Positions 9,087-14,126 of a stretch of DNA of 64,000 nt are shown piece by piece (within the stretch, counting starts at the first letter, position 1; every line of letters starts with the position of its first letter). A model generated the notes under the pieces. The model was given only the letters and a program-made list of their open reading frames with translations. It searched no databases and had not been told where the DNA came from. The stretch covers positions 2,046,001 through 2,110,000 of the forward strand of contig NZ_CP041203.1 of the NCBI RefSeq assembly GCF_008033115.1. The letters are read 5' to 3'. Origin of the DNA: Cellulomonas sp. Y8 (lineage in GTDB: Bacteria > Actinomycetota > Actinomycetes > Actinomycetales > Cellulomonadaceae). Both the position numbers and the translations under genes were made by a program.

Positions 9087-11654
9087 ATGCCCGACGCCTC
9101 GACCAGCGCGCCGGCGGCGCCCGGTCGACCCGACGGGCCCGCCGCGGGCGCGCGCACGCAGGTGCCGCTCGACGGGCTGGGCCGCCCGCAGGTGCTCGAC
9201 ACCCCCGCGGTCCGGGTGCACCACCCGAGCGACCTGCTGGGCGTGGTGCTCAGCCTCGTCGGCGCCGTCGCGGTCATGGCGCTCGCGACGTACGCGCACA
9301 ACACGACGTCCGGCGTCGCGGAGGACGTGCAGGGCTTCGCGTCGCTGCTCCGGCAGATCCTCGTCGTGCCGGTCACCCTGCTCGAGACCGTCGTCACCTA
9401 CCTCGTGCCGATCGCCGTCCTGGCGGAGCTCGCGGTGCGCCGGCTCGGGCGGCAGATGGTCGAGGCCTCGATCGCCGCGATCGTCGCGGTGCTCGCGGCG
9501 GCGGGCGTCGCGTGGCTGGTCCAGCACCTCGGCTCGGACCAGCTGGTCGCCGGGCTCTCCGTCCGGCTCAACGGGCAGCTGACGCTGTCCATCCCCGAGT
9601 ACCTCGCGCTCATCGCCGGCCTGCTGACGGCGACCGGCCCGCGCAGCCGCCGCCGGACCGTCTCGTGGTCGTGGAACCTGGTCTGGGTCGCGGTCGGCGT
9701 CATGGTCATCACCGCGGGTGCCTCGCTGCCCGGCGTGGCGGTCGCGCTGCTGCTCGGCCGCGCCTCCGGCCTCGCCGTCCGGTACGTCTCGGGCGTCCGC
9801 TCGGAGCGCGCCTACGGCGCGAGCCTCCTGGCGGGCGTGCGGCGTGCGGGCTGGCAGCCGCGGGTCCTCGTGCGGGTGCCCGACGAGGACGACGACGCGG
9901 CGGACGACGCCGACCACCGCCCCGCCGCGCTGCAGGCCACCCCGGGGACCCCCGCCGTCGCGCCCAGCGCCGGCGCGCGGGCCGCGGTCCGGTACGCCGA
10001 GCACCGCGCGTACGAGATGGTCACCGAGGACGGCCAGGAGCTCGACGTGCTCGTGCTCGACGGCGACCGCCAGGTGATCGGCTTCCTCAGCCGGCTGTGG
10101 CGGTCGCTCCGCCTGCGCGGCCTGGACGGCCGGTCGGTCGTGTCGCTGCGGCAGGCCGCCGAGCGCGCCGCGCTGCTGTCGTACACCGCGACCGCGGCCG
10201 GCGTCCGCAACCCCGCGCTGCGCGGCATCGCCGAGGCCGACTCGTCGATGCTGCTGGTGCAGGACCCCGTCCCGGCCGCCACCTCGCTCGCGGACCTCGA
10301 CCCCGAGGTCATCACCGACGACGTGCTCCGCGCGATCTGGGGCCAGCTCGGCACCGCCCACGAGGCGGGGCTGGCGCACCGCGCGCTGACCAGCGACGTG
10401 ATCCTGGTGGCAGACGGCCCGGACGACCCGACCGTGTGGCTCGTCGGCTGGGACCAGGGCGACGTCGCCTCGTCCGAGCTCGCGCAGCGCATGGACCGGA
10501 CCCAGATGGTCGCGCTCCTCGCGCTCCGCGTGGGGCCCGCCCGCGCCCTGGAGTCCGCCGTGGCGGTGCTGCCCGAGGGCGACATCGCGGCGATCGGCCC
10601 GCTGCTGCAGACCATCACGCTCCCCCGCCGCACGCGCGAGGAGCTGCGCGTGCACAAGGAGGTGCTCGCCGAGCTCCGGTCCGCCCTGGTGGCGCGGCTG
10701 CCCGAGGCCGACGTCGAGCCCGTGCAGCTGGTCCGGTTCGGCGCGCGCGCCGTGCTGACGATCCTGCTGACGACGGCCGCCGTCATCATCCTGCTGACGT
10801 CGATCAACCTGCAGACGATCCTCGACGCGCTCTCGACGACCGACTGGCGGCTGAGCGTTCTCGCGTTCCTGCTCGGCATGGCGACGTTGTTCGGGGCGGC
10901 GCTGTCGCTAGTGGCGTTCTCCCCCGTCAAGCTGTCGCTGTGGCGCGCCTCGGTCGCGCAGTCGGCGTCGACGTTCGTGGCGCTCGCCGCGCCCGCGGGC
11001 ATCGGCCCGGCCGCGATCAACCTGCGGCTGCTGACCCGCCGCGGCACCTCGACCTCGCTGGCGACGGCGACCGTGGCGCTCGTCCAGGTGTCCCACTTCG
11101 TCGTGACGCTGCCGATGCTGCTGGTGCTGTCGGTCGCGTCCGGCACGAACCAGCTCGAGCGGTTCACGGTGTCCCCGACGGTGGTCGTCGTGATCGGCGT
11201 GCTCGCGGCGCTGATCGGCGCCGCGCTCCTGGTGCCGAAGGTGCGGCAGTGGGTCGCCGCCAAGACGCTGCCGACGGTGCAGCAGACCTGGCCCCGGCTC
11301 ATCGAGGTGGTCGGGCAGCCGTTCCGGCTCGCGGTCGGCCTCGCCGGCAACCTCATCACGACGTTCGGCTACATCCTCGCGTTCGAGGTGTGCCTGCTCG
11401 CGTTCAACCAGCACCTGTCCCTGGTGCAGGTCGCGATCGTCTACCTGGCGGGCAACACCGCCGGCTCGATCGCCCCGACGCCCGGCGGCATCGGCACCAC
11501 CGAGATCGCCCTCGCGGGCGCGCTGACGGTCATCGGCGTGAACCCCGGCGTCGCCACCTCCGTGGCGGTGCTGTTCCGGGTGCTGACCTACTGGCTGCGC
11601 ATCCCGGTCGGCTGGGCGTCGATGCGGTACATGCAGCGCGTCGGCGAGCTCTGA
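9087..11654 (+). CDS. LPG-synthase-TM (flippase-like) protein with degenerate kinase-like domain
   Basis: An 855-residue protein with three parts. Residues about 45-250 hold several membrane helices; about 290-520 form a soluble domain resembling an aminoglycoside/ABC1-type kinase; about 550-850 form the lysylphosphatidylglycerol-synthase transmembrane region (PF03706-like), ending in TPGGIGTTEIALAGAL. The kinase-like loop near 424-440 reads HEAGLAHRALTSDVILV, so the catalytic Asp of the HRD loop is replaced by Ala, and the DFG position is GWDQGD. It is probably a pseudokinase or ligand-binding module. A role in lipid or glycolipid translocation is inferred from the C-terminal family. The ATG lies 7 nt after TAGACT (leaderless type). 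Confidence 0.88.
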   Translation: MPDASTSAPAAPGRPDGPAAGARTQVPLDGLGRPQVLDTPAVRVHHPSDLLGVVLSLVGAVAVMALATYAHNTTSGVAEDVQGFASLLRQILVVPVTLLETVVTYLVPIAVLAELAVRRLGRQMVEASIAAIVAVLAAAGVAWLVQHLGSDQLVAGLSVRLNGQLTLSIPEYLALIAGLLTATGPRSRRRTVSWSWNLVWVAVGVMVITAGASLPGVAVALLLGRASGLAVRYVSGVRSERAYGASLLAGVRRAGWQPRVLVRVPDEDDDAADDADHRPAALQATPGTPAVAPSAGARAAVRYAEHRAYEMVTEDGQELDVLVLDGDRQVIGFLSRLWRSLRLRGLDGRSVVSLRQAAERAALLSYTATAAGVRNPALRGIAEADSSMLLVQDPVPAATSLADLDPEVITDDVLRAIWGQLGTAHEAGLAHRALTSDVILVADGPDDPTVWLVGWDQGDVASSELAQRMDRTQMVALLALRVGPARALESAVAVLPEGDIAAIGPLLQTITLPRRTREELRVHKEVLAELRSALVARLPEADVEPVQLVRFGARAVLTILLTTAAVIILLTSINLQTILDALSTTDWRLSVLAFLLGMATLFGAALSLVAFSPVKLSLWRASVAQSASTFVALAAPAGIGPAAINLRLLTRRGTSTSLATATVALVQVSHFVVTLPMLLVLSVASGTNQLERFTVSPTVVVVIGVLAALIGAALLVPKVRQWVAAKTLPTVQQTWPRLIEVVGQPFRLAVGLAGNLITTFGYILAFEVCLLAFNQHLSLVQVAIVYLAGNTAGSIAPTPGGIGTTEIALAGALTVIGVNPGVATSVAVLFRVLTYWLRIPVGWASMRYMQRVGEL

Positions 11655-11696
11655 CCCCACGCGCCGGCGCGCGGCGTCCGGCCTCCGGGCGCGCCG

Positions 11697-11731
11697 ACGG
11701 GCGCCCGGGGCGCGGCGGCGCGGGCGCCCGT
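11697..11731. terminator. Bidirectional hairpin between convergent genes
   Basis: ACGGGCGCCCG (11697-11707) pairs perfectly with CGGGCGCCCGT (11721-11731) around a 13-nt loop. It sits between the stop codons of the convergent flippase-like gene and the riboswitch-controlled small gene, so it can end both transcripts. Confidence 0.7.
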
Positions 11732-11742
11732 GGGGCGTGCGA

Positions 11743-11913
11743 TCAGGAGGCGGAGGTGCACTCGCGCTGCGCGGGCACGAGGTCCCCGTGCGTCGCGAGG
11801 GTCGCCGCGATGCGGGACCAGGAGGACAGGCGCGTCGCGCTGCGCCCCGTCACGTCGGAGCGGAGGTCGGAGCCCTCACGCTCGGCCGGCTCGTAGAAGC
11901 CGCGCTGTTCCAT
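11743..11913 (-). CDS. Small protein (56 aa) under c-di-GMP riboswitch
   Basis: A 56-residue hydrophilic protein starting MEQRGFYEP and ending QRECTSAS. ATG chosen because AAGGA lies 7 bases upstream and because it directly follows a c-di-GMP-I aptamer. It has no signal peptide or membrane segment; it is charged in its first half, with one Cys near the C-terminus. I recognise no family. The riboswitch implies that its output answers cyclic di-GMP, hence lifestyle changes such as attachment or motility. It ends 12 bases before a strong hairpin. Because it is short, a role as leader peptide or small regulatory protein is possible. Confidence 0.75.
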   Translation of the reverse strand: MEQRGFYEPAEREGSDLRSDVTGRSATRLSSWSRIAATLATHGDLVPAQRECTSAS

Positions 11914-11927
11914 GGCAGATCCTTCGT

Positions 11928-12008
11928 TCGGCAGCCCGGCTGACCTGCGGGGGTCCCGTGGCTTTGCGTCCCCTCCTCGCGGAGGGTTTGCCCTTGTCGC
12001 TGACACGG
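11928..12008 (-). ncRNA. Cyclic di-GMP-I riboswitch (GEMM)
   Basis: Read on the minus strand, the leader contains the class I c-di-GMP core: AAGGGCAAACC, a short GC hairpin capped by GCGA, then GGGGACGCAAAGCC, and after a short linker CAGGTCAGCCGGGCTGCCG. These match the universally conserved GGGCAAACC and GACGCAAAGCC segments and the tetraloop-receptor/P3 side of the aptamer. The 3' edge is 14 nt before the start codon of the 56-residue gene, next to its AAGGA site, so control may be at translation. No clear intrinsic terminator lies between aptamer and gene. Confidence 0.92.
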
Positions 12009-12065
12009 CGACTGTAGGCCCGGCGCCGGGCCGAGCGGAAGGGTGCTGCCGGGAAACTTCAGCCC

Positions 12066-12083
12066 AGAACACGCATTTCACCC
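12066..12083 (-). promoter_or_regulatory. Candidate promoter of the riboswitch transcript
   Basis: On the minus strand GGGTGAA (12083-12077) is followed after 5 nt by TGTTCT (12071-12066), about 60 nt before the aptamer. The same GGGTGAA plus 5-6 nt plus TNNNCT layout occurs in both promoters of the divergon at 31546-31602. Functional assignment is inference. Confidence 0.4.
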
Positions 12084-12173
12084 ACTCGGGCCAAAGCGGA
12101 CAAAACGCGCGGACAGCGCCCACCCGGCCCGCGGGACGCCGCTTTCCGGTGAATGCGCAGGTCAGCCTGGTTC

Positions 12174-14126
12174 TCAGGCGGCCGGCACCGCCACAGCCCG
12201 CAGGAACGACTCCAGCAGCGGCCCCGACGTCGTCGAGCCGAAGTCCCCGGTCTCGACGAACACCGCGACCGCGAGGTCGCCCTGCGCCGCGATCATCCAC
12301 GCGTGGTTCTGCAGGTCCTCCCCCGACCCGTACTGCGCCGTGCCCGACTTGGCGATGACCTCGGGCCCCGGCACGTCCTGCAGGAAGTCGCCGCCGCCCT
12401 CGGTCACCACGGCCCGCATCATCGACCGCAGCGCGTCCGCCTCGGCGGGCGTCAGCGGCTGGGCGGGCCCTGGCACGGCGGTCGCGGTCTCCGCCGCCCC
12501 GTCGAGCAGGAGCCGCGGCGTGACCCGCGCGCCTGCCGCCACCGACGCGGCGACCGTCGCCATGCCGAGCGGCGTCGCCTGGACGCGGGCCTGGCCGATC
12601 ATCGACGCGGCGTGGTCGGTGCCGCCGGTGGCCTCGGCCGGCACCTCGCCGAGCGTCGCCGCGAAGCCGAGGTCGGCGCCCGCCACCAGGCCGAGCGACT
12701 CCGCCGCGGCCGCGAGCGCCTCCTGCGGCGCCGTGCCCGCCGCGGTGAGGAACGCGGTGTTGCACGACTCGGCGACCGCCGTCCGCAGCGTGATGTCGCC
12801 CAGGGCGTCGGCCGGGTAGCCCGGGTAGTTCTGGAACGACCGGCCGTCGACGGTGGCGGTCTCCGGGCAGGTGACGGTGCTGTCCGGGGTCAGGCCGGCG
12901 CGCAGCAGCGCGAGCGAGGTCGCGACCTTGAACGTCGAGCCGGGCGCGTACAGGCCCAGCGTGGCCGTCGACATCCCGCCGCCGCCCGGTCCGCTGGCCG
13001 CGGCGAGCACGTCGCCGGTGGACGGCCGGATCGCCACGATCGCGCTCGCGCTGCCCACGACGGTGGCGACCAGGTCCTCCGCGGCCTGCTGCACCGCGGG
13101 GTCGAGCGTCGTGCGCAGCGGCGCGCCCACCTGGGGTTCCACGTGGAACAGCTCCCGCTCCTGCGCGCCGCCGGCGGTCGCGACCACCGTCAACCCGGGC
13201 TCGCCGCGCAGCTGATCGTCGAACTGCGCCTGCAGGCCGCTCAGGCCAGTGAGGTCGCCGGCGACGACGGCGCCGTCCGACTCCTCGACGATCTCGGCGG
13301 TCGCCTGGCCGACCGTCCCCAGCACCGGGCGGGCGAACGCGCGGCTGGGCGCCAGCGGCAGCGCGGTCTCGATCATGTTCACGCCCGGCACCACCGAGAG
13401 CGCGCCACGGTCGTACGCGGGGTCGTCGTCGCGCACCACGATCGCCTCGACGAACGCCTTCTCCCCCGCCGCGGCGACCTGGGCCGCGTAGGCGTCGGCG
13501 TCCAGGCCGAGGGCCGCCGCCAGCTCGCGCGCCGCCCCGTCCGCCTGCTCCGCCGGGACGCGGGTCTTGTCGATGCCGATCCGGAACACCGGGCGCGACT
13601 CGACGAGTACGGCGTCCCCCGCCCCGAGCACGTCCGCGCGCTCCGCCTGCACCCGGTGCACCTGCAGGGCCTCGCCGGCGGCGAGGTCCGGCGCGAGCAG
13701 CATCGACGACCACCGGGCGCGCCACTCGTCGTCGACCTTCGCCAGGTTCGCGTGCGTCGTGTACGTCCACGTGGTGGCGCTGCTGCCGACGTCCCAGGTG
13801 AAGGTCAGCTCGACCGACGCCGCCGCGTCGTCGTCCGCCGCCACCACGTCGCCGGCCGCGACCTCGGGCTGCCACGGGTCCAGACCCGCGTACGCGGCGG
13901 TGCGCGCCTCGCCCGCCTCCGCGGCGGTGGCGCCGTCGAGCGGGACGTCCGCGAAGTCGCCCGACGCGAGGGCGTCGGCGAGGGCGTCCGCGGTCCGCTG
14001 CCGGTCGTCCGGCCCGCCCGAGCACGCCGCCAGCGCCCCCACGAGCGCGAGCAGCACGCCGACCGCCACCCCGCGCCGCGCGGCGCCCCGACCCCCTGCG
14101 ACCCGCACCGACCTCACACGCCTCAC
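12174..14126 (-). CDS. Lipoprotein penicillin-binding transpeptidase
   Basis: A 650-residue class B-like PBP. It has a signal peptide with lipobox LAAC (about Cys35), an NTF2-like MecA N-terminal region (about 40-150), a dimerisation region, and a transpeptidase domain with the three active-site motifs: STFK near 395, SCN near 454, and KSGT near 590. It should cross-link peptidoglycan outside the membrane while held by a lipid anchor rather than a helix. A MecA-type N-terminal domain with lipid anchor is typical of actinobacterial accessory PBPs. The GTG start is the most upstream one giving a basic n-region. Regulation not evident. Confidence 0.92.
   Translation of the reverse strand: MRRVRSVRVAGGRGAARRGVAVGVLLALVGALAACSGGPDDRQRTADALADALASGDFADVPLDGATAAEAGEARTAAYAGLDPWQPEVAAGDVVAADDDAAASVELTFTWDVGSSATTWTYTTHANLAKVDDEWRARWSSMLLAPDLAAGEALQVHRVQAERADVLGAGDAVLVESRPVFRIGIDKTRVPAEQADGAARELAAALGLDADAYAAQVAAAGEKAFVEAIVVRDDDPAYDRGALSVVPGVNMIETALPLAPSRAFARPVLGTVGQATAEIVEESDGAVVAGDLTGLSGLQAQFDDQLRGEPGLTVVATAGGAQERELFHVEPQVGAPLRTTLDPAVQQAAEDLVATVVGSASAIVAIRPSTGDVLAAASGPGGGGMSTATLGLYAPGSTFKVATSLALLRAGLTPDSTVTCPETATVDGRSFQNYPGYPADALGDITLRTAVAESCNTAFLTAAGTAPQEALAAAAESLGLVAGADLGFAATLGEVPAEATGGTDHAASMIGQARVQATPLGMATVAASVAAGARVTPRLLLDGAAETATAVPGPAQPLTPAEADALRSMMRAVVTEGGGDFLQDVPGPEVIAKSGTAQYGSGEDLQNHAWMIAAQGDLAVAVFVETGDFGSTTSGPLLESFLRAVAVPAA

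Follow-up and report, generated by a model that had tools for sequence, protein, structure and literature searches.

The minus strand of the window, a stretch of 64,000 nucleotides from Cellulomonas sp. Y8, carries a riboswitch of a known class, c-di-GMP-I, and the target of this riboswitch is a new, genus-wide family of small proteins. This verdict rests on the covariance score and on conservation. The explanation that best accounts for the data, with a probability of roughly 0.6, is a small-protein gene repressed by the riboswitch; that its peptide tunes BldC and WhiG is a much weaker guess. An orphan small protein thereby gains a likely input, c-di-GMP, together with a tight linkage of gene and aptamer across the genus and a motif that can be tested.

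The aptamer and its presumed ligand-contact bases

The aptamer is located at positions 11926–12001 (minus strand). A cmscan search of positions 10500–13500 of the window gave one match over the gathering score, RF03167 (c-di-GMP-I-GGC), with 68.5 bits against a cut-off of 59 (E value 2e-15), covering the model over its full length (1–80 of 80; acc 0.93). In a whole-genome search the aptamer also scored 65.4 bits with RF01051 (c-di-GMP-I), well over the cut-off of 35 bits for this model, yet it is matched slightly better by RF03167, its best match in Rfam. Both GEMM-I core segments, GGGCAAACC and GACGCAAAGCC, are present. An earlier note on this DNA had proposed a c-di-GMP-I riboswitch and had named a covariance-model search beforehand as one test of it. 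The scores and the core segments confirm this observation, and the interpretation built on it is largely upheld, with c-di-GMP as the predicted ligand.

Three bases, G20, A47 and C92, which we take to be the ligand contacts as numbered in the Vibrio Vc2 structure, appear on inspection to be present in the window aptamer. The base on the 3′ side of GACGC is A in the window, and G in the consensus of the RF03167 model. In a search that would have accepted A, G or T here, this A was found in 132 of 132 loci, and by eye it is present in the other 14. The base is presumably A47, and the window site is therefore read as a canonical c-di-GMP-I site. The name of RF03167 may list the contact bases; in that case the Cellulomonas copies would carry the canonical base, and the window copy would lack the G-for-A change after GACGC that the name implies.

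The base at G20 separates c-di-GMP from c-AMP-GMP riboswitches, an A in this place being the change of the c-AMP-GMP variants. The window aptamer has G here, in contrast to those variants. By eye, three of the 146 aptamers described below (L079, L130 and L148) have A at the presumed G20, so that the ligand may differ among the copies. These three read AGAGCAAACC, and the others xGGC. Two of them (L079 and L148) precede near relatives of the window's gene. Their ligand, and that of L130, could possibly be c-AMP-GMP, which would amount to a natural change of ligand within one gene family. Passages of a published study (PMC7266159) describe c-di-GMP as the ligand of most GEMM RNAs and c-AMP-GMP as that of rare variants.

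Covariation was assessed in an alignment of 46 rows, consisting of the window and 45 leaders picked for diversity from the 108 that fit the search pattern. Because this pattern required both GACGCAAAG and a G in the G20 position, the alignment is blind to variation at these positions. The aptamer helices are paired in 97.6% of the cells, and slid controls pair 23–47% of them. Double changes are found in 35 cells, where shuffles give 15.2 and none of 500 reaches the observed number, although these shuffles, like those for the P1 extension below, ignore the relatedness of the sequences. Two pairs in each of helices P2 and P3 have double changes, and both helices appear to be supported by covariation. 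The number of pairs with a double change (4 versus 2.8; 36 of 500 shuffles as high) and the number of further pair types (11 versus 10.0; 138 of 500) do not exceed the shuffles, and the two inner pairs of P1 never vary in the 46 rows.

An aptamer match is found in 78 of 118 genomes (over the cut-off in 74), with a strong concentration in the genus (70 of 72 genomes, versus 8 of 46 outside it). From among the matches listed, 146 aptamer loci (L003–L148; 140 from the genus) were taken. The next gene is the small gene in 67 of them, a BldC-family gene in 62 (one of which, L126, is apparently frame-shifted), whiG in two, and another gene in 15, including a response regulator and secreted-looking proteins. 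In seven loci (L015, L028, L072, L078, L085, L120 and L146) the aptamer is followed by a long frame with a start that looks secreted by eye, and three of these (L078, L085 and L120) share a common type of protein. The window genome itself has a second aptamer, at G000:C1:3826621-3826695 (L010), which precedes the other riboswitch target of this genome, a 74-residue BldC-family gene (NF033787, 101 bits). The domain matches of this genome include 17 GGDEF, 11 EAL and 2 flagellin, and c-di-GMP signalling as well as flagella are therefore expected.

A plasmid origin of the element was considered and rejected: a search of the plasmid collection yielded four Deinococcus records, whose matches take up 19–30% of the query and lie in its aptamer part. 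These plasmids (NC_012527.1, NZ_CP026518.1, NZ_CP092187.1 and NC_015170.1) show 76–90% identity to the aptamer part, and no annotated gene lies under the matched stretches. In the open-licence literature searched, we found no description of the gene family controlled by the window aptamer, of a riboswitch-linked bldC or of a c-di-GMP riboswitch in Cellulomonas, and a passage on c-di-GMP-I-GGC gives no description of this small-gene system.

The small-protein family

The gene behind the aptamer encodes 56 residues and spans positions 11743–11913 (minus strand), with its ATG at 11913–11911. The next gene (9087–11654, plus strand) is convergent to it, and no other gene lies directly behind it on the minus strand. 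The 56-residue frame is thus the only direct candidate for the target, in agreement with the earlier note. The Shine-Dalgarno site AAGGA that the note had also reported is present at 11920–11924, 6 nt before the ATG; the distance of 14 nt between leader and start codon needs correction, as the ATG lies 12 nt after the last base of the aptamer. The strong hairpin said to close the gene does not stand. Folding of the 76 nt starting at the stop codon gives −48.4 kcal/mol; shuffles average −44.05 kcal/mol, and the difference is not significant (z −1.22; 22 of 200 shuffles as good). A terminator scan lists nothing behind the stop codon.

With a profile of the family, 67 of the 71 genus genomes give a match and none of 45 other genomes does; the genus genomes without a match are G012, G049, G053 and G056. 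All 71 matches with E values below 1e-7 (66 in the fetched aptamer loci, the window, and four further ones, L199–L202) have an aptamer directly upstream, so the small frame is conserved behind homologous aptamers. One weaker match (G022, E value 5e-4, L203) has neither an aptamer core nor an ATG at the start of the match. A further small-gene case, L042 in G071, falls outside the profile search. A wide protein search with the profile gave 99 proteins, and those named by organism are from Cellulomonas, except one from a metagenome that is labelled Rugosimonospora. The 56-residue protein matches no family in NCBIfam, Pfam, PADLOC or PHROGs. Judged by these searches, it appears to represent a previously unnamed family present in nearly every Cellulomonas genome examined, and restricted to Cellulomonas among the genomes searched. 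The members have 38–58 residues.

The frame is, on the evidence of its sequence, a real gene. Residues M1, R28, W32, A36 and P47 are invariant over 55 sequences, and the columns for M, R, W, A and P do not vary across 68 copies either (all 68 have a start and a stop by selection of the sequences). The GC content by codon position is 0.74/0.61/0.90. Between the window and ten near relatives (L029–L031, L035, L036, L038–L040, L079 and L148) dN/dS is 0.14–0.53. When all 2049 usable pairs are taken together, the median is 0.69 and 19% of the pairs reach 1 or more; distant pairs, for which the ratio is unreliable, give values of up to 2.0. An AlphaFold model (mean pLDDT 72, pTM 0.38) has one helix, residues 15–42, which by eye is not a membrane segment. 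The protein is probably a small regulator; that it acts as a small effector of lifestyle change, as the earlier note suggested, would be a further step beyond this.

Two other accounts of the gene have to be weighed here. The open reading frame might not encode a functional protein at all, being instead a leader peptide or filler in a transcript that acts as RNA. The small size, the lack of a known family and the lack of a confident fold beyond one helix are consistent with this, but the invariant residues, the GC pattern of the codons and the near-clade dN/dS values argue against it so clearly that we consider it very improbable. Alternatively, the riboswitch and the gene are real, with the cell envelope or a flippase-like neighbour, rather than BldC and WhiG, as the target of the protein. 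Of 67 small-gene loci, examined in stretches of about 2–3 kb, 58 have a convergent flippase-like gene next to the small gene, and a PBP-like gene is found in 23. Moreover, of the four genomes without the small gene, three (G049, G012 and G053) give no match in the flippase search, and the fourth (G056) gives matches of only 32% and 29% identity. The neighbour is convergent, however, and is not co-transcribed. In addition, four extra copies of the family lie away from the main locus, two beside a frame that by eye is permease-like (L084 and L135) and two beside a sigma gene (L090 and L095), and the modelled helix does not look like a membrane segment. An envelope role is unlikely on balance, and a regulatory peptide acting on BldC and WhiG is kept as the guess we favour.

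The leader and the direction of the switch

A −35-like element, CTTCCG (12036–12041, minus strand), and a −10-like element, TACAGT (12011–12016, minus strand), lie just upstream of the aptamer. Of 65 distinct small-gene leaders, 42 show the arrangement CTTCC-N19/20-TANNNT and 23 do not fit it; TAATGT- or TACAGT-like elements occur at the same place in small-gene leaders. A scan for the sigma-70 consensus listed no promoter at the leader. If these elements are the promoter, transcription might start at about 12004–12006, which is a guess from the sequence. Two overlapping terminator-like hits with TTTTG are located at 12126–12109 (minus strand), between the PBP-like gene and the leader, and they fit a separate transcript for the riboswitch leader.

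The proposed mechanism would begin with a short mRNA, made from its own promoter and starting a few bases upstream of the aptamer. The closing helix P1 would adjoin, or reach into, the Shine-Dalgarno site of the gene for the 38–58 residue protein. Bound c-di-GMP would hold P1 closed and block the ribosome site, and the small protein would be made mainly at low c-di-GMP, when the cell is motile or growing.

Immediately 5′ of the aptamer lie bases that pair with others beside or within the Shine-Dalgarno site. The 5′ strand of this P1 extension, GUC (12002–12004, minus strand), pairs with bases near the ribosome site in most relatives, and the 3′ strand, GA (11924–11925), runs into the Shine-Dalgarno site. 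At the best of three offsets, at least three contiguous pairs are formed in 41 of 46 leaders. The pair total is 195, compared to 175.4 (sd 5.6) in shuffles, none of 2000 being as high. One BldC subgroup has GUUG/CGAC in place of GUC/GAC. In the window itself only U and C pair, giving an extension of two pairs, as in 4 others of the 46. As P1 borders on the ribosome site and the pairing of its extension exceeds that of the shuffles, repression of translation by c-di-GMP is favoured, and we regard an OFF switch as the probable direction.

The opposite direction has some support from folding. Translation would be turned on if c-di-GMP broke a competing structure that pairs the 5′ GUGUC with GACGC of the core. 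At three of four lengths (100, 150 and 200 nt) the most stable predicted fold of the window leader contains this pairing, which is seen again in the series that compares folding with and without a forced aptamer. The outcome of that comparison is mixed. With a 40-nt tail, forcing the aptamer raises the accessibility of the window's Shine-Dalgarno site from 0.60 to 0.87, but with a 20-nt tail it lowers it from 0.60 to 0.24. Among the small-gene leaders that fit the pattern of the script, to which the folding counts are confined, accessibility goes down in 10 and up in 3 of 16 with the 20-nt tail, and down in 8 and up in 8 of 18 with the 40-nt tail. For the BldC leaders the corresponding counts are 11 drops among 18 and 12 among 19, with two rises in either set. 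These drops and the P1 pairing, which runs toward the ribosome site in most relatives, leave an ON switch conceivable and distinctly the less likely of the two directions.

The VPxQR motif and a possible link to BldC and WhiG

The small protein carries a VPAQR motif near its C terminus (residues 46–50; 11764–11778, minus strand). Among 68 copies, the VPxQR columns have P in 100%, Q in 97% and R in 81% of the ungapped rows. For comparison, [VI]P.Q occurs three times in the 14019 residues of 38 window genes picked by script. Similar motifs are found in two known regulators. All 54 tails read of riboswitch-linked BldC proteins have [VI]PxQ, the tail being GVPQQ in the riboswitch-linked copy of the window genome and GIPQQR in Streptomyces BldC. 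Of 15 Cellulomonas WhiG proteins read from the best-scoring loci, 14 carry GVIPxQ in their N-terminal extension, and the fifteenth has GVIPSP (another locus, L185, gave no readable extension). In L175–L184 and L186–L188 this extension is long and variable, with GVIPxQ conserved except in L187. In 16 order-level loci (L159–L174) the motif was not seen by eye in up to 110 residues.

The likeness is confined to the motif. Unlike BldC, the 56-residue protein has no helix-turn-helix match (no NF033787), and unlike WhiG/FliA (TIGR02479) it has no sigma domains. Homology to either protein beyond the motif was sought with hhalign and rejected: only the motif is aligned, with probabilities of 1.1% and 1.4% and E values of 0.048 and 0.037, for a motif that had been noticed before the comparison. 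Passages of a study of BldC (PMC5859096) that list the residues of its head-to-tail interface do not include the tail motif. The motif link among the small protein, BldC and WhiG is a lead and not a result.

A few loci bring the aptamer and the sigma factor gene together. In G058 and G061 (L077 and L121) the aptamer directly precedes whiG, with PxQR motifs near the start of WhiG. In G006 (L205 from 586) the aptamer is followed by a divergent small gene, in which LPTPN replaces the motif, and then by a FliA-type sigma gene. The latter scores 169.8 bits, below the TIGR02479 cut-off, and has Sigma70_r2; one possible GTG start of it overlaps the stop codon of the small gene. By coordinates, a family member and a sigma gene have the same spacing in G011.

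In Streptomyces, c-di-GMP acts through the c-di-GMP-binding proteins BldD and RsiG. In Cellulomonas, the small protein may be a largely helical peptide, with VPxQR near its C terminus competing for, or joining, a partner shared by the BldC tail and the WhiG extension, and this would tune the BldC/WhiG circuit. Taken by itself, the proposal that the peptide regulates this circuit through VPxQR is a tentative and weakly supported guess. If it is true, riboswitches would couple a developmental circuit of the Streptomyces type to c-di-GMP in a relative that has flagella. We are at least as doubtful of the wider idea of a Cellulomonas c-di-GMP riboswitch regulon that sets a second BldC, a peptide whose VPxQR mimics the BldC tail and the WhiG extension and, in some species, WhiG in parallel, by which c-di-GMP would reach the BldC/WhiG circuit through RNA.

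Co-loss of the small gene and WhiG is not relied on for this link. Among the 71 genus genomes, no WhiG over the cut-off is found in G007, G013, G049, G053 and G056, of which G007 and G013 keep the small gene. In a GyrB tree (29 rows from 30 chosen genomes, G053 being left out) G049 and G056 fall in separate clades. Co-loss is weakened further by incomplete genomes (G053 is 61% complete, G012 and G013 89%). As the flippase-like neighbour is missing too, gaps or wider deletions are possible in place of co-loss.

The tail motif of BldC is old, as it is present in Streptomyces BldC and in three of the five BldC copies without an aptamer that were read in Cellulomonas, the other two having LPQQ and VPQP. 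These (L249–L253) are additional BldC copies in five of six checked genomes, and the 300 nt upstream of each contain no aptamer core.
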